DNA from: an uncultured bacterium
GTDB taxonomy: Bacteria > Verrucomicrobiota > Lentisphaeria > Victivallales > UBA1829
Reading direction: 5' to 3'
DNA: 64,000 nt
Assembly: GCA_902778895.1 (NCBI GenBank)
Contig: CACYZF010000006.1
Span: 62,001-126,000 of the forward strand
The notes below the pieces were generated by a model. The model worked only from the letters and a program-made list of their open reading frames with translations, had not been told where the DNA came from and did no database searches. Made by a program: the position numbers and the translations under genes. Within the stretch, counting starts at the first letter, position 1. The number at the start of each line of letters is the position of its first letter. Of the stretch, positions 12,773-29,272 are shown one piece after another.

Positions 12773-14341
12773 ATGAAACACCGTTTTTTCCTGATCGCTT
12801 TACTATTCTGCTGTGTGCTGGGCGGGTCCGCCGCTCTCTTCACCGTTTTCACCGCCGAGATCGCAACCGCGACGAGATCTTCCGGTTACACCGACCTGAC
12901 GGCACGGTTCGGGGCGCCGGTCGATCCCGACGAAGCCCGGCGTTGGACGGAGCTCGGGGAAATCGCGCGGAAGGGCCCGGAAGCGCTCCTGAACCGAATT
13001 CGCGAGGAGCAGACGCCCGCGCCGCTGATCTATTCCAAGTGGTTCGTCGACGAACGGATCGCTCGGGTCTCTGAGCCGAGGGCCGAGCTCGAACGCGCCA
13101 AACGCGAGTTCGGGCGCGCCTGGGCGGTCCAGCTCGAAGAGGAAAGCGGGATCATCCGCGCGCTGACCACGACCGCGGAACACGAGGCGAAAGCACGGAC
13201 GCTGCTGGATCTGGCCGACTGGATCGGGAGCGAGGGCGGTTACGGCAACCTGTGGCTGTTCTTCCGGCTTCAGGACCTCGCGAACATCTCGGTCGGGCAT
13301 CTGCTGTCCGACAAGGATTATTCGATGGATTCGCTGGAACAAATCGCGCCGCGCCTGCTGAAAAATATCGATATCTACACGAAGATCGGCATCCACGCGC
13401 TGAACGCCGAAGCGCCGGAACCGATGTTCAAACTCGGGAAAGTCAAGCCCGATCCGAAATACGGTCCGCCGCGCACGAACGGGGACCGGGAAGACGACAT
13501 TCAGGGCCCGGCGTTCGCCGCCTGGCACAAAAACCTGGCCGAAGCGACGAAACAGTTGCGAAAAACGCAGAAAGACGGCGAATACGTCGGCAGTCTGTCC
13601 GGCGAGGGAAAACGAAGCCGTCTCCCGGACGATCTGCAGTTCTTTATCGACGACGAACACGAGATCATTGCACGCCCGTTTACGACCGTGGCGCAGTGGG
13701 ATGTCAAATTCCACTACAAGATACTGCTCGGCCTGGTCGGGAACAAGGTGAAATACAGCCTGGATCTTCTGGAGTTCCGGCGGAGGGTCGGAACACTCCC
13801 GGAGCCCTACGTTTTCACGCAGGCGGAGATCGCCCAGTGCGAAAAGGAAAAGGAGGATGCCGCAAAACGCGGAGTGAAACTCGTTCCTTTCTGGGAAATC
13901 CCCGATTTCGATGCACGGGAATTTGCTTTCAGGAATGCGTGGAAAGCGCTCCCCGGACTCCCGAACGATGAACGCAACGATTACTACGGCGCATACTGGA
14001 TTTTCAAGCTCGTGCAGGAAAACAATCTGTACGACGACGATTATGAAGAATCGAAAAAAAGGGAAAAAAAGCAGGCAATACGGGAAAAGAACGATAGAAT
14101 ACAACAGCTTGACAGACAACTGTATCAAGAACTTGATGCTGCCAGGGAGGAATATGCAAAGGCAAAAATGTATGCAGAACAAAAAGATTTCGAGTTGTAC
14201 CTTCTCAGTCGGGAAGAAGGAAAAAAAGATGAATTGGAAAAAGTTAAACTTGAGGAAAAAGAGGCGAGAGAAATGGCTCAAAAAGCCTTGGAAAAATATA
14301 ATGAAGCAGACAGGAATTATAAGAGCCTTTATAAAGATTAA
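12773..14341 (+). CDS. Secreted protein of unknown function with a coiled-coil tail of foreign composition
   Basis: 522 residues. The N-terminal signal MKHRFFLIALLFCCVLGGSA is followed by a mostly helical, charged body. The last ~100 residues (from about 14040) are a Lys/Glu-rich coiled coil. At the DNA level the body is GC-rich like the chromosome while the tail abruptly becomes AT-rich with long A runs, like the gene on the other side of the gap. I read this as a recombination joint or a recent 3' replacement. The signal closely matches that of a 42-codon relic at 20604-20732. The Shine-Dalgarno site is weak. No family recognised. Confidence 0.8.
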   Translation: MKHRFFLIALLFCCVLGGSAALFTVFTAEIATATRSSGYTDLTARFGAPVDPDEARRWTELGEIARKGPEALLNRIREEQTPAPLIYSKWFVDERIARVSEPRAELERAKREFGRAWAVQLEEESGIIRALTTTAEHEAKARTLLDLADWIGSEGGYGNLWLFFRLQDLANISVGHLLSDKDYSMDSLEQIAPRLLKNIDIYTKIGIHALNAEAPEPMFKLGKVKPDPKYGPPRTNGDREDDIQGPAFAAWHKNLAEATKQLRKTQKDGEYVGSLSGEGKRSRLPDDLQFFIDDEHEIIARPFTTVAQWDVKFHYKILLGLVGNKVKYSLDLLEFRRRVGTLPEPYVFTQAEIAQCEKEKEDAAKRGVKLVPFWEIPDFDAREFAFRNAWKALPGLPNDERNDYYGAYWIFKLVQENNLYDDDYEESKKREKKQAIREKNDRIQQLDRQLYQELDAAREEYAKAKMYAEQKDFELYLLSREEGKKDELEKVKLEEKEAREMAQKALEKYNEADRNYKSLYKD

Positions 14342-16856: not shown

Positions 16857-16899
16857 AAATCGGCTCGACGCTTTTTGAGGGGAAAAAACGTTCAGGGGG

Positions 16900-17811
16900 T
16901 TACTGGAAGACGATCTGGAAAAACTTGTACAGATGCGGTTTGACACTTGAGGGGTCGTGACCCGTGCCGGGCGTCAGGCTCCAAATGACATCCATGCCGT
17001 TGTCGGTCAGAATCTTGCGATAGTCCGACGGAGTATTGCGGACCGCATTGTCGTTTCCTCCCGCGCTCAGCAGAAAGAATTTCGGGGTGTATTCCGCCGG
17101 GAACTTCATTTCCTCCGGCGTCATCTGGCCAGGATGCATGGCTGAATTCGGCACGGGAATAAGTCCGGGGGCGGGGCAGACCGCGCCGACATAGCCGAAA
17201 AGCTCCGGGTGACGGAACGCGATGAACATGGCTTCGCGGCCGCCCATGGAGAAGCCCGTGATCGCGGCGTTCTTGCGGCCTTTCTTCACGGAGAAAGTCT
17301 TTTCGACGAACGGTATCACATCGGTGACCATGTCGTCGATGAAATCGTCGTAGCCTTGGATGGCGGTCATGATGTCAAGTCCGTTGACACGCGCATGTTC
17401 CTTGTTCGTGAAGTTATAGGTCAGGACCACGATCATTTCTTTGGCCTTCCCGTCCGCGTAGAGCTGCGTCAGCATTTGCGGGATGCCCACGACGTCGCGT
17501 GCCATCCAGGTCTCGTCGTCGGTATATCCGTGCAGGATGTAGACAACGGGATACTGTTTGTCCTTCGAATAATTGGGCGGCAGCAGGACGTTCAGGTTCG
17601 TGTCACGGCCTGCCGTGCGCGAAAAGTAGGTGTAGCGCTGAAATCTCCCGTACGGCGTGATGCCGGACAGGTCGCCTGGCTCCGCGGCTTCCACGGTCGC
17701 CTGCGCCCAGACGTAATCCTTCGACGGGTCGTCGCCGTCGGATGAGACTGTCGCACACGCAGACATTACCGCCACGCACAGGATTGATGCCGCTTTCAAT
17801 AAGTTCTTCAT
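16900..17811 (-). CDS. CE1-like esterase lipoprotein (feruloyl/acetyl esterase type)
   Basis: 303 residues with GGAGG six bases before the ATG. The signal ends VAVMSACA, a lipobox, so it is membrane-anchored. The esterase D/CE1 fold is shown by LLPPNYSKDKQYPVVYILHGY, the nucleophile elbow GFSMGG (serine ~190), an aspartate in GGNDN and the histidine in GTGHD. Family members cleave acetyl or feruloyl esters from plant polysaccharides such as xylan and pectin. It sits directly downstream of a GH43 gene (90 bp) and probably works with it on the same substrate. Confidence 0.9.
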   Translation of the reverse strand: MKNLLKAASILCVAVMSACATVSSDGDDPSKDYVWAQATVEAAEPGDLSGITPYGRFQRYTYFSRTAGRDTNLNVLLPPNYSKDKQYPVVYILHGYTDDETWMARDVVGIPQMLTQLYADGKAKEMIVVLTYNFTNKEHARVNGLDIMTAIQGYDDFIDDMVTDVIPFVEKTFSVKKGRKNAAITGFSMGGREAMFIAFRHPELFGYVGAVCPAPGLIPVPNSAMHPGQMTPEEMKFPAEYTPKFFLLSAGGNDNAVRNTPSDYRKILTDNGMDVIWSLTPGTGHDPSSVKPHLYKFFQIVFQ

Positions 17812-17900
17812 GTTGTACCTCCGCCCGTTTTGTTGTCATGGGCTGTTTGTTATGTTGATTCGTCCGAATGGGGTTTCCTATAACCTGAACTTTCCCGCGT

Positions 17901-19004
17901 TTACGGCTGCACGGCCTTCCCGTCGCAGTCCAGGAGGACGGCACGCGAATCGCGGTTCGGCGCGTGGAGAATGATTTTATGTTTCCCCTCGAATGTCACA
18001 AAGTGCATTCCGTGCCCGCCATCTTTCGTGTAGAGCGGCTTCGCGATCTGTTTCCACGGCCCCTGAAGTTTTCCGCTTTCCGACACGGCCAGCCAGAGAT
18101 TGTAGGCGCCGTTGTCATAACCGCTCCAGATCATTTTCAACTGCCCGTCCTCACGGAAAAGATATGCCCCGTCGGTCACATAATTGTCCTTGCCCGGATC
18201 AGGGTGGTTGTTCGGACCGTCGGAACCGTGGAACAGCAGAACCGGTTCGCCTTCCAGATGCGTGAAATCATCCGAGAGCCGCGCGGCACAGATGGTTCCG
18301 TCCGTGACCTGCACCCATTCGTGGCAGAACACCATCCACGGGTCGCCCGCCTCATCCACGTAAAGCGTCCCGTCCAGGCACATCCAATCCTCCGGCGTCA
18401 CCGGACGCGGCGTAACGGGCTCGTAAGGCCCGGCAGGATTGCCGCTGGTCGAACGGAAGATCTGGGTGCCCCGGTGCGAATCGTCTCCGGTCGTCCCGAA
18501 GATATAGTAATTGCCCTTCCAGCAATGAAGTTCCGGCGCCCAGAAATCGTGAATGCGCCAGAACGTCCCCTCCTTCGGTATGAATGCCGGATAAGGGCCG
18601 CGCCACTGTTCCAGGTCTTCGCTGACATACGTCACGAATCCACGCCCGAACTGCCCGTCCGCCGTGCGTACGCCGCCGGATGCCACAAGGTAATACAGCC
18701 CGTCATCATTCGGCAGGATGCAAATGTCGCGGATTCTCAGCTGATTCAAAGGGGATGTGCGTACTTGACCAAGACCCGGAAACCGGCTGTCGATTTTCGC
18801 CAGAGCCTCTTCCGCGATTGCCTTGCGCTTGCCCGCATCCATGAGATCCGGATTCTTTTCCTGCGGAAGCTGCAATCCCTGTGCATTTCGCGATACAGCA
18901 TCCCCTGAATCCGTCGCACACGAGGTGAAAAATGCCGCGGCACACGCCAATGCCAGCAGAATCGGGACAGGGTTTACGGAACAAAACGTTTTTCTCATGG
19001 ACAT
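17901..19004 (-). CDS. Glycoside hydrolase family 43 lipoprotein
   Basis: About 367 residues from the ATG at 19004 (GGAAGAAAAGG upstream); a second ATG two codons later is possible. The signal ends AAFFTSCAT, a lipobox. The five-bladed propeller signature is visible: IRDICILPNDDGLYYLVA (catalytic base Asp), HDFWAPELHCWKGNYYIFG, CLDGTLYVDEAGDPWMVF and VTDGAYLF...KMIWSG. GH43 enzymes remove arabinose, xylose or galactose from hemicellulose and pectin side chains; the specificity is not readable. Expression is probably from the promoter in the upstream repeat at 19114-19222. Confidence 0.9.
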   Translation of the reverse strand: MSMRKTFCSVNPVPILLALACAAAFFTSCATDSGDAVSRNAQGLQLPQEKNPDLMDAGKRKAIAEEALAKIDSRFPGLGQVRTSPLNQLRIRDICILPNDDGLYYLVASGGVRTADGQFGRGFVTYVSEDLEQWRGPYPAFIPKEGTFWRIHDFWAPELHCWKGNYYIFGTTGDDSHRGTQIFRSTSGNPAGPYEPVTPRPVTPEDWMCLDGTLYVDEAGDPWMVFCHEWVQVTDGTICAARLSDDFTHLEGEPVLLFHGSDGPNNHPDPGKDNYVTDGAYLFREDGQLKMIWSGYDNGAYNLWLAVSESGKLQGPWKQIAKPLYTKDGGHGMHFVTFEGKHKIILHAPNRDSRAVLLDCDGKAVQP

Positions 19005-19113
19005 AATTGCCTTTTCTTCCTTGAATTGAGGTGAAACAAACAATCAAATGAAAGGTTTTAGAGGTGTCTTGTCTCTTTAGTTCCTGAATTGGAGGGTTCG
19101 AGGAATCACAACT

Positions 19114-19222
19114 TTTTATTATACCACGCCCCATGAAAAAAAGCAAGGGCAACATGGATGAAAATGACGGGAATCGTCTTTTATGCTCAACCGGCGACTT
19201 CCTTCCCGGAGCCTGCCGGGAT
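19114..19222 (-). repeat. Portable promoter repeat, copy 1 (for GH43)
   Basis: On the minus strand this carries TTGCTT (19146-19141), 17 bp, TATAAT (19123-19118), with GGGGCGTGG just before the -10 box. About 60 bp further upstream is CCGGCAGGCTCCGG. Both blocks are shared with 20823-20930 and 21992-22110. Each copy lies 70-115 bp before a minus-strand start codon. The rest of the gap to 19474 is AT-rich with nothing recognised. Confidence 0.8.
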
Positions 19223-19474
19223 GAGTCTTCGTGACGACCGGTTGCAGGAGTTCCGTGTTGAGGCGTGATAACTGGCAAAGATGCCCGGTTGGCTCCGCTC
19301 CCTGCCGCCCGTGACAGGACGGCGGGGAAGAGCTCGGTCGCGTGGATGGATTATTTCTCCGTGGATTGAGCGGACGTTTTTCCCTGGTCATTCAAAATAT
19401 TTGGAATGACATGAAACATGGATCAGGAGGCATAACATTCATTTTCTGTAGAAAAATACATTTTCTGTCAACAA

Positions 19475-20530
19475 TCAATCAAAATAAAAAACAAGACTTC
19501 TATCCCCCTCTTTCTTGTTCATATCTAAATCTATTCCAACTCGAACAAAACGAATCTTTGTGTTATTGTTGAAAAAATAAACTGGTTTAATTATAGCTTT
19601 TCCAAAATGACCCCCAACTTTAATATAGACAGGAATTGATTTTTTCTCGAAAGAGTAGTGTGTATCATTTTTGTTTTTTTTAAGTTCAATCGTTATCTCC
19701 CTCTTATTATATCCTTTCTCCGGGGCAGTCGTATATTTCTTATTAAAATCATCGAGTGTAATAGGCTTGGAATGAAAATCCTCCATCAAAATAAAACCAT
19801 CATCCGGATTATCCGAATGAAAACGAACAATGTATGCTGTCGGGTAGGAAATGCCAAAAAACAAAGACGGATCTGCGTAGACAATATTGCCCTTCTCATC
19901 TCGTTTGAAATCCAGTTCTATGTATTTCTTTGTATCGTCTTTTGTTTTTAAAGAACATGTTTTTATATTGATCTGATACTTCTTTTCTACCTCAGTGCTC
20001 TCAGTCTCTCCCTTTTTTTGTTCTGAAAAAGCAGAAAGGTCAAAGATGCTTTTTGTTTCATCCTCAAAATTATAAACAATATAATTTGAAGCGGCAGCCT
20101 TTTTTGCACGTGGAGGTATTTTTGTCATTTTGACCTGAATGCTTTTTTGGAGAATCGGCTTTGATATATCCATTTTAGATATGTTATTATCAAAAGAAAA
20201 ACGCTCATCATAATAACCGTCTTTATGAAAAGAAAGACGAAGAATTGAATATCCCGTTTTTTGAACACGGAACTTAGACCCAATACTCTCGCTATTCGTT
20301 TTATATTCAGTTTCCATCATATTTTCTGGATCAGGACGACCAATTTGAATGAACAGAAGGACGTTGTCCAATGGATTCCCATTGGTGTCTGTTACCTCTC
20401 CATTTATATCAAAACCAATAACATCAAGCAAGTTATTGTTATTGTTGATCTCCTGAGCCCAAAGCCCGAAGAATGACCCGATTATCGCATATGCTGCAAT
20501 AAAAACAATGAAACAAGATTTCTTTTTCAT
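19475..20530 (-). CDS. AT-rich secreted protein with an N-terminal carboxypeptidase-regulatory-like domain
   Basis: 351 residues. A signal peptide (MKKKSCFIVFIAAYAIIGSF, cleavage near LWAQ) is followed by a beta-sandwich start, INGEVTDTNGNPLDNVLLFI, typical of carboxypeptidase-regulatory/CnaB-like domains, to about residue 125. The rest is Lys/Asp-rich with no recognised fold. Its composition is strongly AT-rich, unlike the flanking genes. Its expression may depend on the promoter repeat at 20823, which first drives a truncated signal-peptide ORF. Function unknown. Confidence 0.8.
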   Translation of the reverse strand: MKKKSCFIVFIAAYAIIGSFFGLWAQEINNNNNLLDVIGFDINGEVTDTNGNPLDNVLLFIQIGRPDPENMMETEYKTNSESIGSKFRVQKTGYSILRLSFHKDGYYDERFSFDNNISKMDISKPILQKSIQVKMTKIPPRAKKAAASNYIVYNFEDETKSIFDLSAFSEQKKGETESTEVEKKYQINIKTCSLKTKDDTKKYIELDFKRDEKGNIVYADPSLFFGISYPTAYIVRFHSDNPDDGFILMEDFHSKPITLDDFNKKYTTAPEKGYNKREITIELKKNKNDTHYSFEKKSIPVYIKVGGHFGKAIIKPVYFFNNNTKIRFVRVGIDLDMNKKEGDRSLVFYFD

Positions 20531-20603
20531 TTTTTTCTCACGGTTTATTTATTTTTGAATGTATCGAAAAAGATTGTATATGCCACTTGTTAATTTGAAG
20601 TCG

Positions 20604-20732
20604 TCATATTCCATCTTCTTCAAGAATCTTTCCCTTCGGTGTGGACGATGGCGTGGCATCCTCTGCCGAGGCGGCCAGTCCGCCCAGCACGCAGGCGAAC
20701 AAAGCTGCGATCAGAAATACCCGGTGTTTCAT
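20604..20732 (-). pseudogene. Signal-peptide relic of a replaced secreted-protein gene (42 codons)
   Basis: With a perfect AGGAG seven bases upstream, the ATG at 20732 opens a frame encoding MKHRVFLIAALFACVLGGLA and ~20 more residues before a stop. The first 18 residues match the signal peptide of the 12773 gene at most positions. Composition changes to AT-rich just beyond its end. I read this as the 5' end of a former gene, with promoter, ribosome site and signal intact, whose body was lost when the AT-rich 19475-20530 gene arrived. A genuine short secreted peptide is the alternative. Confidence 0.6.
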
Positions 20733-20822
20733 GTTATTTCTCCTATGGAATTGGTGTTGCGGATTCCAGTTCAGGTTCAGCTACTTTCACGTTGTTGCTG
20801 ATGGAGGGGGTGAGGAATCACA

Positions 20823-20930
20823 GTTTTATTATACCACGCCCCAAGCAAATAATCAAGCGGGAAATGCCGGAAATGCAAGGGAAACGCCTGATCACCCGCT
20901 GACATCCTGCCCGGAGCCTGCCGGACAGGG
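20823..20930 (-). repeat. Portable promoter repeat, copy 2
   Basis: Minus strand: TTGATT (20856-20851), 17 bp, TATAAT (20833-20828). The upstream half continues with GGCATTTCC-type repeats and ends in the CCGGCAGGCTCCGG block (20911-20929). It is close to identical to copy 3 through the first 65 bp. It drives the signal-peptide relic at 20732. Confidence 0.85.
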
Positions 20931-21010
20931 GGGGGGCAGCGTCTTGATTCGGCATCGCGACCGCGTTGCCTTCCTGTTTTTTTGTGATGGAATAACGGCA
21001 CAAAGCGGAC

Positions 21011-21925
21011 CTATTGCCGGGCGCCGGATATCTTGTTGAAGATCATTTTCACAACGGACTGGATGCGCCATTTCATGTTGTGCGCCTCGCAGAACGCCCG
21101 GTATTTCTCCAGCGCCTCGACGGAATACGTTTCCGTCAGGACCCGGTCCACGCGTTCATAAAACGGGTTATCCTCCAGCTCATAGGACCGCGGCTCTTCC
21201 CCGTCGTCTTCGTCCGTGTTGAACAGGTCGAACTGCTGCATGATCTTCAGCAGGGACGCCTCGCCGTCCGCCGGCAGCGCCCGGAATTCCTCTTCCGACA
21301 TCAGGAACAGGATGTCTTTCGCAAGGTTAAAAAGACGATTCTTCAGCAGGAACATGATGTGCTCCGCCGGGGAAAGCTCGTCCGGCACGGTCCACCCCAG
21401 CAGGAACCGGAAACGGTGAAGTTCCTCCGGGACAGACTCTTTCAGCACGTCGACGGCGGCAAGTTTCCAGTACAGCCGTTCCGCACAGCGGTATCCCTCA
21501 TAGTCGAGAATCTTCGGCGTGATGAACCGGACCACATCAGGCAGGACATCGAAGCGCCGGTATTTGATGAGGAAATCGATGTATTCCTCCAGCTGATGGA
21601 ACGAGTCCGTGCGGTTGTCCTCCCGCAGGAGCCGGAACGAAGCCGAATACGCCTGAAACGCCTTTTCCGGTTCGTTCAGAGAGGCATGAAGTTCGCCCAG
21701 AAAACTGTAAAAGAGGGGGAGAGTCCACCGGACATCCGCCGCAAGCTCCCGATCCTGTCCGGGAAGCGCCAGATAGCCGAGATATGTATCGACGATTCCC
21801 GAAAACTTCGCGATCTTTTCCTTCTTCTGGGCACGGTTCAGCTCGGAAACGATCGTGTCCCAATAGTCTTCGTGATTCCGCCGGACGATTTCTTCCGTCA
21901 GCACTGTGTTTTTGTTTCGGTCCAT
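21011..21925 (-). CDS. Helical (TPR-like) cytoplasmic protein, unknown
   Basis: 304 residues. The frame continues upstream through the promoter repeat, but the first sensible start is the ATG at 21925, 70 bp after the repeat's -10 box; the ribosome site is weak. The protein is all-helical and acidic, with TPR-like pairs (FYSFLGELHASLNEPEKAFQAY and similar) in the first half and a short acidic stretch (EDDGEEPRSYELEDN) near residue 250. No signal or membrane segment. No family recognised. Confidence 0.75.
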   Translation of the reverse strand: MDRNKNTVLTEEIVRRNHEDYWDTIVSELNRAQKKEKIAKFSGIVDTYLGYLALPGQDRELAADVRWTLPLFYSFLGELHASLNEPEKAFQAYSASFRLLREDNRTDSFHQLEEYIDFLIKYRRFDVLPDVVRFITPKILDYEGYRCAERLYWKLAAVDVLKESVPEELHRFRFLLGWTVPDELSPAEHIMFLLKNRLFNLAKDILFLMSEEEFRALPADGEASLLKIMQQFDLFNTDEDDGEEPRSYELEDNPFYERVDRVLTETYSVEALEKYRAFCEAHNMKWRIQSVVKMIFNKISGARQ

Positions 21926-21991
21926 ATTCGGAAAAACTCTTTTCGTCAGTACAGCAACACACGGTATTGCGGATTGATAGGTCAGGTACAG

Positions 21992-22110
21992 TTTATTATA
22001 CCACGCCCCAAGCAAAAAAACAAGCGGGAAATGCCGGAAATGCAAGGGAAAATGCCTCAGCGCGTCCTTCCAGCTCAATCTCTGACTTCCTGCCGGAGCC
22101 TGCCGGACAG
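21992..22110 (-). repeat. Portable promoter repeat, copy 3
   Basis: Minus strand: TTGTTT (22023-22018), 17 bp, TATAAT (22000-21995). Same GGGGCGTGG spacer and the same distal CCGGCAGGCTCCGG block (22091-22109) as the other copies. It drives the 21925 gene. Confidence 0.85.
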
Positions 22111-22142
22111 GGGAGAGGACTAATTGTTGATGCAGGCCGGGA

Positions 22143-23396
22143 TCATACCTCAAGGCTGTTCGGCATCAATAGGAAATCCAGCAGCCCCATCGTCACAATG
22201 CCGTTTTCGTCACGGCGGACTTTGATATTGTCCCTGACGAGAACGATTTTCTTGAAGGAGTCGTTAAATCGCAGGAACGGACGTTTCTCCTGAGCTTCCT
22301 TGTCCGGCGAGCTCATGGAAAAGGCGGACTGAACATAATAGCGCCTGCTTCCGGAATTCGCGACGAAATCGATTTCCAGCTGCTTGCGCTCCATCTTCCC
22401 GTTTGGCTGCTTTTCCCGGATTCCCACAACGCCGACGTCGACGGAAAAACCGCGATACCGCAGTTCATTGTAGACGATATTCTCCATAATGTGGTTTTCG
22501 TCCTGCTGACGGAAATTCAGGCGGGCATTGCGCAGCCCGACATCTTCGTAATAATATTTGAACGGGGTGTCGATATAGCCTTTTCCTTTGATGTCGTAGC
22601 GAACCGATTTGTTGATCAGAAAGGCGTTCTCCAAATACTTGCAATACCGGGCGATTGTGCTTTCTGGGAAAGGAACGCCTCGTTTCGAATGGAAAGTGTT
22701 TGACAGTTTCAGCGGATTGGTGAGGGAACCGGTAGCCGAAGCCAGAAGGTCCAGCAGTACGCCCATTTCCGTTTTATGGCGGATCTTGTTGCGTTCCTTG
22801 ATATCCTTGATGTAAGTCGTCTCGAACAGATTCCTGAGGTAATCGACCTTCTGTTCGTCGCTGTTCATGGAAAGAATTTGCGGAAGCCCGCCATAGGTAA
22901 AATACTCCTGCCAGGCTTCGTCACGGCTTCCCTGGAACACAGCGCAGTATTCGGAGAACGAAAGCGGGTGGATTCGAACCTCGTTTCCCCGTCCGCGGAA
23001 TTCAGTGACAATATCGGTAGAAAGAAATTTGGAATTGCTGCCGGTCACATACACGTCGGCGTTGCGATAGTGAAGCAGTTCATTCAAAACGGAGACAAAG
23101 TCCTTCAGCATCTGCACTTCGTCAAGGAGGATGTAATACATGCCGTCGTCCTTCATCTTTTCGGAAAGATACGAGAGAAGGACATCCGGATCGCGATACT
23201 TCTCATTCCTGCGCATATCCAACTCCAAACCGATGATATGGTCTGGACGGATACCGGAATCCAGAAGATCCCGGCGGAACAGTTCGAAGAGCAGATAGGA
23301 TTTCCCGCTTCGACGCAGGCCGGTAATGACTTTGATCATGCCGTCGTGCATGCGGTCTTTCAGTTTCTGAAGGTAAATCGGTCTTTCGATGTTCAT
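22143..23396 (-). CDS. DUF4143-family AAA ATPase, copy 1
   Basis: 417 residues from the ATG at 23396 (AGGTGA upstream). An N-terminal AAA domain (Walker A GLRRSGKS, Walker B YYILLDEVQ, sensor VTGSNSKFLS) is followed by a DUF4143 domain that includes YGGLPQIL and a C-terminal nuclease-like fold around ENIVYNELRYRG and LEIDFVAN. Such ATPases are common in gut bacteria, often in several diverged copies, and have no established function. Its promoter lies between two copies of one palindrome, which suggests self-regulation. It is GC-poorer than the neighbouring glycosidase. Confidence 0.9.
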   Translation of the reverse strand: MNIERPIYLQKLKDRMHDGMIKVITGLRRSGKSYLLFELFRRDLLDSGIRPDHIIGLELDMRRNEKYRDPDVLLSYLSEKMKDDGMYYILLDEVQMLKDFVSVLNELLHYRNADVYVTGSNSKFLSTDIVTEFRGRGNEVRIHPLSFSEYCAVFQGSRDEAWQEYFTYGGLPQILSMNSDEQKVDYLRNLFETTYIKDIKERNKIRHKTEMGVLLDLLASATGSLTNPLKLSNTFHSKRGVPFPESTIARYCKYLENAFLINKSVRYDIKGKGYIDTPFKYYYEDVGLRNARLNFRQQDENHIMENIVYNELRYRGFSVDVGVVGIREKQPNGKMERKQLEIDFVANSGSRRYYVQSAFSMSSPDKEAQEKRPFLRFNDSFKKIVLVRDNIKVRRDENGIVTMGLLDFLLMPNSLEV

Positions 23397-23414
23397 GGTG
23401 TCACCTGCAAATAG

Positions 23415-23513
23415 AGAATTTCCGGCATCGTTGCCGCTTTTTCGCCATTTAATATAACCCTTCGGCAGATTGATTTCAAGCGTTGAATGAAGAATTTCCG
23501 GCATCATTGCCGC
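23415..23513 (-). promoter_or_regulatory. Promoter of ATPase 1 flanked by twin palindromes
   Basis: Minus strand: TTGAAA (23479-23474), 17-bp spacer, TATATT (23456-23451). Two 23-bp copies of one sequence, 23415-23437 and 23491-23513, differ at one base and flank the promoter. Each holds the inverted repeat CGGCA-N4-TGCCG. The arrangement fits two operator sites for one repressor. Confidence 0.7.
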
Positions 23514-27984: not shown

Positions 27985-29181
27985 TCACTGTAGCAACCAG
28001 TCCAGCACATTGAGTTTGCGTATGCCGTTGAAGTCATCCGACGGGTCTTCGTCCAAGGTCAGCAGGAATTTCGGGTAACTGTCCCGGATTGTATTGAACG
28101 GGGCAAGCTCACGTTCCAAAGTCTTGGTGTCACGCACGCTTGCGGCAACTTGATAGTATTCCGTTCCATTGGAGTTCTCCACCACGAAATCGATCTCAAG
28201 TCCGCCGACTTTTCCTACATACACTTTGCCCCCGCGTCTCAGCAGTTCCAGATAGACCACGTTCTCCAGGATATGCCCCACATCCTGATACTGTCCGCCA
28301 AGAAGATGTCGGCGCAATCCGAGATCGACAGCATAGTATTTGTCCTGCGTTTTCAGGAGCTGTTTGCCTTTGATGTCGAAACGTTTTGCCTTGTAGACAA
28401 CAAAGCTTTCCAGCAGGGCTGAAAGATATTTCTCAACGGTCTTGCTGTCGGTCTTCCTGGCGCCGGAGGTCAGCGTATCCGCAATTCGTTTGACGGACAA
28501 CTCGCTGCCTATACTCGAAAACACGAATTTCGCCACACTGTTCAGAATCATCGGATCCTGAATTCGACGCCGGGCCATTACGTCTTTCACGAGGATCGTG
28601 TTGTAGATGCCCTCCAGATAGCTGTCCAGTTCGCGCGCTGCCCCGGAAAGTTCCATTGTGTACGGGAAAGAACTGGTCGATACGTATTCCCGGTACAGGC
28701 TTTGTCGGTTGGCGGTTTCCGTATGGGCCTGAGCGAACTCGCGGAAGGACAGCGGAAGCATGCGGATCTCCACATATCTGCCCGAAAGCATGGTTGCCAG
28801 TTCGGAGGAGAGCAGATTTGCGTTGGACCCGGTGATATAGATGTCGGTGTTGGGCGTGATGTATAGGCTGTCCACCACGCGGGGAAACTCCTTGCAGAGC
28901 TGAACTTCGTCGATGAACACATAAGTCATTTCTTTCGAGGAAAGCCGCTTCTTGATGTAGGAATGAAGCGCCAGTGGCTGGCACAATGCCTCGTTCTCAA
29001 GTTTCTCAAGATTCACCTCGATGATGCGTTTCTTCGGGACGCCTTGCTCTCTGAGCCATTCGGCGTACATCTCCATCAGCACGGATTTTCCGCATCGACG
29101 TACTCCCGTGATGACCTTGATGATTTGCTTTCCCCGCCAAGCTTGGAGTTCCTTCAGGTATTCTGGCCGTTCAATTCTCAT
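27985..29181 (-). CDS. DUF4143-family AAA ATPase, copy 2
   Basis: 398 residues from the ATG at 29181, with GGAGG seven bases upstream. Walker A is TGVRRCGKSVLM, Walker B YVFIDEVQ, sensor ITGSNANLLSSE; the DUF4143 region and C-terminal block ENVVYLELLRRGG...LEIDFVVEN follow. It is only distantly similar to copy 1 at 22143, so the two are not a recent duplication. Its promoter also carries two copies of a palindrome, with an unrelated sequence. It is the leftmost gene in the segment bracketed by the 320-bp repeats. Function unknown. Confidence 0.9.
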   Translation of the reverse strand: MRIERPEYLKELQAWRGKQIIKVITGVRRCGKSVLMEMYAEWLREQGVPKKRIIEVNLEKLENEALCQPLALHSYIKKRLSSKEMTYVFIDEVQLCKEFPRVVDSLYITPNTDIYITGSNANLLSSELATMLSGRYVEIRMLPLSFREFAQAHTETANRQSLYREYVSTSSFPYTMELSGAARELDSYLEGIYNTILVKDVMARRRIQDPMILNSVAKFVFSSIGSELSVKRIADTLTSGARKTDSKTVEKYLSALLESFVVYKAKRFDIKGKQLLKTQDKYYAVDLGLRRHLLGGQYQDVGHILENVVYLELLRRGGKVYVGKVGGLEIDFVVENSNGTEYYQVAASVRDTKTLERELAPFNTIRDSYPKFLLTLDEDPSDDFNGIRKLNVLDWLLQ

Positions 29182-29212
29182 TTGCTTACCTCCGGTTACG
29201 CATTGATTTACA

Positions 29213-29272
29213 TTTGGAATATAATCCAAAAACTCAAAAAGTCAAGCGTATTTTTGGAAAATAATCCAAAAA
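29213..29272 (-). promoter_or_regulatory. Promoter of ATPase 2 with two TTTGGA-N6-TCCAAA operators
   Basis: Minus strand: TTGACT (29245-29240), 16-bp spacer, TATATT (29223-29218). One inverted repeat TTTGGA-N6-TCCAAA (29213-29230) covers the -10 box; a second with eight-base arms (29251-29272) lies just upstream of the -35 box. A half site TTTTTGGA recurs at 29291-29298. Confidence 0.75.

Follow-up and report, generated by a model that had tools for sequence, protein, structure and literature searches.

The repeat found three times in the window (the whole 64,000-nt stretch analyzed here, from a 3.24-Mb genome, G000) is probably a promoter-bearing intergenic module of gene cassette arrays, at which genes are exchanged, most likely by homologous recombination. 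It is a real, genus-specific repeat with a predicted promoter that appears to join gene cassettes, by a mechanism that is probable but unproven. In our reading it is the genes that would move, and the promoter repeat is the place where they are joined.

All three copies lie on the minus strand in one shared orientation, confirming a sequence-only reading that had described same-orientation copies with a -35 hexamer, 17 bp and TATAAT. Their exact cores are GGGGCGTGGTATAAT, at 19118-19132, 20828-20842 and 21995-22009, and CCGGCAGGCTCCGG, at 19206-19219, 20911-20924 and 22093-22106. Across an ungapped 60-nt core, copies 1 and 3 are respectively 73% and 97% identical to copy 2. Four matches to GGGGCGTGGTATAAT at ≤1 mismatch occur in the genome and none to its reversed control, so the repeat is not a product of chance. 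The complete promoter ascribed to each copy held only in part. The 17-bp spacer, ending in GGGGCGTGG, and TATAAT are common to all three, with a TG one base before TATAAT forming an extended -10, but copies 1 and 3 have only a weak -35 (3/6 consensus matches, against 4/6 in copy 2), and for this reason a consensus promoter scan reports copy 2 alone. We speak of a predicted promoter with sigma-70-type features. Distances from TATAAT to ATG are 119 nt (GH43), 101 nt (signal-peptide relic) and 75 nt (helical protein), near the 70-115 bp previously given.

The ~110-bp unit of the sequence-only reading is likewise real, but the element extends further as a conserved downstream leader. The module runs from a CCTGTCCGG-CAGGCT-CCGGGCAGG hairpin, usually through AAGTCGGCGG, to the promoter and a ~55-nt leader (AAAGTTGTGATTCCTCAAACCCTCCATCAGCAACAACGTGAAAGGGCTGAAATG), and often into the first ~10 codons (MSNTKMRR...). 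The CCGG-CAGGCT-CCGG hairpin stands ~80-110 bp upstream, and both its CAGGCT loop and the 3' flank AAGTCGGCGG are strongly conserved. Comparison with copies elsewhere indicates that these codons encode MSNTKMRRNIFLAVVAVF, often the predicted start of an export or membrane signal. Among 12 genes with the shared start, which fall into six mutually non-homologous clusters, leader DNA is ~70% identical and identity changes from 92% in the first 10 coding nt to ~45% beyond 30 nt. The hairpin alone, or the promoter-leader part alone, is also found. A 5-kb repeat scan revealed no terminal inverted repeat spanning the element. Folded as single-stranded DNA, the copy 2 unit is no more stable than its shuffles (z 0.05), a 9-bp hairpin being predicted nonetheless. 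As the sequence-only reading supposed, no described family was found in Rfam (no match near the gathering score, one sub-threshold sRNA match) or in the literature searched.

Table 1 Repeat copies and associated features in the window
Feature	Position	Strand	Remarks
Copy 1 hairpin, loop CAGGCT, imperfect stem	19201..19224	-	core exact; stem ends inferred from sequence
Copy 1 predicted promoter	19118..19146	-	TTGCTT 19141-19146, 17 bp, TATAAT 19118-19123
Copy 1 leader	19005..19117	-	common to GH43 orthologues in G002, G008
GH43 glycoside hydrolase gene, 367 aa, downstream of copy 1	17901..19004	-	PF04616, 7.4e-31
Esterase-like gene travelling with GH43	16900..17811	-	order reversed in G009, G010
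Promoter-GH43-esterase block	16895..19146	-	95-96% identical in G002, G008; left end is the -35
Copy 2 hairpin CCTGTCCGG-CAGGCT-CCGGGCAGG	20906..20929	-	
Copy 2 predicted promoter	20828..20856	-	TTGATT 20851-20856, 17 bp, TATAAT 20828-20833
Copy 2 leader	20733..20827	-	fused to second leader kind, one preceding MKHR-type genes
Signal-peptide relic	20604..20732	-	42 codons then stop (MKHRVFLIAALFACVLGGLAASAEDATPSSTPKGKILEEDGI)
351-aa gene of no known family	19475..20530	-	303 nt past copy 2 -10; G+C 34%
Copy 3 hairpin	22089..22111	-	stem ends inferred from sequence
Copy 3 predicted promoter	21995..22023	-	TTGTTT 22018-22023, 17 bp, TATAAT 21995-22000
Copy 3 leader	21926..21994	-	
304-aa gene of no known family, downstream of copy 3	21011..21925	-	
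Hairpin-to-hairpin cassette with 304-aa gene	20892..22114	-	96% copy, different flanks, in JAFZUW010000076.1

Several genes around the copies deserve mention. The 351-aa gene has many paralogues in the genus and a G+C content far below the 57% of the window, which suggests recent acquisition. A 522-aa gene at 12773-14341 has an MKHR-type signal start like that of the copy 2 relic; its homologue in G011 is found at contig ends, adjoining two element arrays (L054:1-1058, L063:1-762). Two AAA/DUF4143-type ATPase genes (22143-23507 and 27985-29229) lie near arrays, and the first matches the PADLOC candidate family PDC-S01.

Of 13 genomes in its genus, a rumen group of Victivallales/Lentisphaeria, 12 carry the element; it is absent from all 23 genomes that represent the other nine genera of the family. 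The window genome holds four strict copies and several leader-only copies, and genomes of the genus contain 0-7 core copies at ≤1 mismatch; the single core match in G001 stands without the rest of the module. Most copies are in short co-oriented arrays, many of them 1-4 kb apart and separated by one gene or a short operon. The claim that copies stand upstream of genes was borne out, with an ORF ≤320 nt away for 43 of the 45 distinct copies in the genus. The idea of a dispersed element that inserts its promoter across the genome fared worse, given so few copies, mostly confined to arrays; a genome-wide MITE was rejected on account of this scarcity and of variable ends.

Among named public relatives, those that hold true copies are for the most part MAGs of rumen Lentisphaeria/Victivallales. 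Where an 18-mer matches in Paenibacillus, Saccharibacteria, Oscillospiraceae and other taxa, most of the module is missing; these matches are probably due to chance, a few of them showing weak promoter-core similarity. One record labelled Lachnospiraceae (JAFZUW010000076.1, 1-3911) contains four element copies along with the 96% copy of the copy 3 cassette, and is probably misbinned. A search for phage or plasmid carriage left the copy 2-3 stretch unmatched in both annotated collections. Seven stretches in IMG/VR contain the 18-mer, and true copies occur only in two, both from one 98.5-kb contig. This viral-filed contig (IMGVR_UViG_3300037455_001397, 78429-98541) bears at least four modules, which adjoin MkoA-like helicase and PDC-M26A-like genes; the genes read on it are host- or defence-like and not clearly phage, and the contig may be a virus, the flank of a provirus or host DNA.

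The element leads unrelated genes, as had been proposed from the window: with the first 35 residues removed, 44 element-led genes sort into 19 clusters, and no similarity could be detected from one cluster to another. Sel1-repeat genes form the largest cluster (16/44). Other families named by Pfam are GH43, B12-binding/radical SAM, FGE-sulfatase-like and Reg_prop, and many of the proteins match no Pfam family. Array genes are co-oriented and mostly 120-490 codons long. A hydrophobic N-terminal segment is present in 40 of the 44 proteins and a lipobox-like motif in 20, counts that are suggestive only because they derive from a simple pattern with no control set; they hint that array genes encode mostly exported or membrane proteins. 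Pfam scans of element-led proteins yielded no immunity family. One SUKH protein is encoded near a G012 array and is not directly element-led.

Some arrays occupy a conserved locus with a Clp ATPase and an Opp-type permease on one side, rng/fmt on the other, and differing element-led genes between. Both sides are on one contig in G000, G008 and G011. Contigs of G002, G005, G009 and G010 end inside the region, giving one side or separate halves, and these genomes likely share the locus. In G000 the variable cluster is on contig C7 (L140:5824-8238), and its content differs in related species. The window arrays occupy another locus.

Comparison between species locates the exchange within the module. 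Genes 86-98% identical between species keep their leader while the DNA upstream is unrelated. The GH43 protein of G000 is 97-99% identical to those of four other species; from the promoter core onward its leader hardly differs among G000, G002 and G008, with all DNA upstream unrelated, and in G009 and G010 the order of GH43 and the esterase is opposite. Orthologues (12 pairs) have an identity of 0.54 in the upstream DNA, versus 0.56 for unrelated pairs, and of 0.85 versus 0.76 in the leader (permutation 0.004, the pairs being not fully independent). Mirror cases also exist, in which near-identical upstream genes sharing an upstream promoter half are followed by different genes. Three different genes occur behind one DinJ/YafQ-like pair and its constant upstream promoter half across four species, and the gene that follows a Sel1 gene is not the same in G005 as in G012.

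Left ends of shared gene blocks range from -105 to +150 of TATAAT, one collinear locus pair excepted, and ends at -4 and -23/-24 recur across several gene families. The copy 3 cassette recurs hairpin to hairpin in its second context. Synteny breakpoints reach a density of 4.33 per kb in the element, compared with 1.30 for the remaining intergenic DNA and 0.19 for ORFs; the 3.3-fold excess over the remaining intergenic DNA may be inflated because regions were chosen for containing elements. These comparisons establish, at the level of sequence, that exchange inside the module has happened in several lineages. The sequence-only view of a promoter carried to genes does not fit, as shared DNA ends vary inside the element, and the leader and first codons follow the downstream gene. 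Many joins fall in the leader and have no element across the junction, which means that other kinds of recombination are also at work. Four diverged homologues of the copy 3 gene (42-45% identity) occur without the element, which counts against a role of the module as cassette junction.

In these comparisons each half of the module accompanies its own neighbour, the downstream half the gene that follows and the upstream half the gene that precedes, and genes are thereby inserted, lost and reordered at the module. As mechanism we propose homologous recombination between direct-repeat modules, within a cell or with DNA of relatives, which might excise or insert one gene and one repeat per event. 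An incoming gene would land behind a predicted promoter and a ribosome-binding region, in many cases with a signal peptide as well. We infer homologous recombination because joins are spread over the module and tyrosine recombinases are absent near nearly all arrays. The longest exact match between copies within G000 is 31 bases, which is little for present-day homologous recombination and counts against this interpretation; exchange may for that reason be old or involve relatives' DNA. We saw no excised circle or in-progress event. A more ambitious version, which we advance tentatively and with considerable doubt, is a genus-specific gene-capture platform without its own integrase, in which the promoter-leader-signal module would be both recombination joint and start of expression and export, and captured envelope genes would be expressed at once at fixed chromosomal hotspots.

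The strongest competitor, though unlikely, is a site-specific recombinase acting in trans, which would cut and join cassettes at the hairpin much as happens in integrons or rAID arrays. Conservation of the CAGGCT loop and its AAGTCGGCGG flank would suit such an enzyme, as would the hairpin-to-hairpin extent of the copy 3 cassette. Joins, however, are distributed across the whole module and not at one base, and tyrosine recombinase domains (PF00589) are missing from the G000 contigs bearing the window, C7 and C10 arrays (C6, C7 and C10). Matches in that genome are on C1, C2, C5, C8, C9, C11 and C16. The genus-wide search covered tyrosine recombinases and placed one near an array only in G009:C51 (5 kb), and perhaps on G012 contigs. 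The domain in G009 (C51:16339-16815) lies ~5 kb from a lone hairpin/upstream copy (C51:11034-11115), and its type is absent from other genomes of the genus at that score.

We give little credence to a self-mobile promoter, MITE-like or otherwise, that copies itself upstream of genes. It would account for the same promoter before many unrelated genes and for modules that stand alone. It sits poorly with few, mostly arrayed copies, inconstant ends and the lack of a spanning terminal inverted repeat in the 5-kb scan, and insertion alone does not leave leader and first codons with a gene while its neighbours change. Slightly less probable again is ordinary duplication, by which one ancestral gene would have kept only a recognizable 5' region. 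The Sel1-repeat cluster is what such a history might leave; yet the 18 other clusters have no similarity past the first codons, array genes are 86-98% identical between species, and the implied divergence rates are too unequal to be plausible. Misjoining of contigs at repeats is very improbable: public sister records are rumen MAGs and many arrays are at contig ends, but G000 copies share too little exact sequence (31 bases at most), the window is within a 395-kb contig, and some joins recur in independent assemblies (G002/G009, G008/G002).

Integrons need an integrase and usually depend on one external promoter, and their attC sites have conserved GTT/AAC ends and variable stems. The arrays described here are similar in that single genes, all facing one way, are exchangeable and are separated by a palindrome-bearing repeat. 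They differ in that no IntI-like recombinase is linked (by a search for the general domain PF00589), the palindrome is conserved in both stem and loop sequence, the attC GTT/AAC core is absent by eye, the repeat itself bears a predicted promoter, and joins spread over the module. Mycoplasma vsp/vpma loci are variable lipoprotein arrays of one gene family switched by DNA inversion. In them too, a promoter, leader and signal sequence are common to the surface protein genes of an array, whereas the gene bodies here are unrelated.

The recombinase-associated acquired interbacterial defence (rAID) arrays of Bacteroidales combine an upstream tyrosine recombinase, co-oriented genes of ~100-300 codons, an intergenic motif and orphan immunity proteins (PMC12247911). 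Co-oriented arrays of short genes, conserved intergenic motifs and an origin in gut bacteria are shared (PMC12247911). In contrast, nearly all arrays here stand without a linked tyrosine recombinase, G009:C51 being the one close case, many genes encode exported or membrane proteins and some enzymes (GH43, radical SAM), and the Pfam scan of element-led proteins returned no immunity family. We do not file the element as rAID because, although layout and motif match, the recombinase is missing from nearly all arrays. Mobile promoters, as summarized in PMC8049555 (Matus-Garcia et al. 2012), also place one promoter before many unrelated genes; relative to that summary, our element is distinct in its arrays, its variable ends and its position as a junction flanked on both sides by genes that change. 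Switched intergenic regions, in which a locus swaps its regulatory region (Piggy, PMC5890482), likewise give related genomes one gene under unrelated upstream DNA, but in our arrays swapping takes place at a repeated promoter and it is the neighbouring genes that change.

The element thus resembles rAID and integron arrays, yet fails defining features of both. Its arrays are of the gene-cassette kind, with a promoter repeat that would act as the joint and, in nearly all of them, no linked tyrosine recombinase. Because the predicted promoter appears to serve as the joint, exchange would keep expression possible on both sides, and a newcomer gene would bring along a predicted promoter and, in many cases, the beginning of an export signal. 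Any benefit, for instance rapid turnover of cell-envelope proteins, is conjecture. If our interpretation is correct, the module would offer bacteria a simple route for shuffling genes of the cell envelope, and existing metagenomes would allow cassette turnover to be traced in an uncultured rumen lineage.
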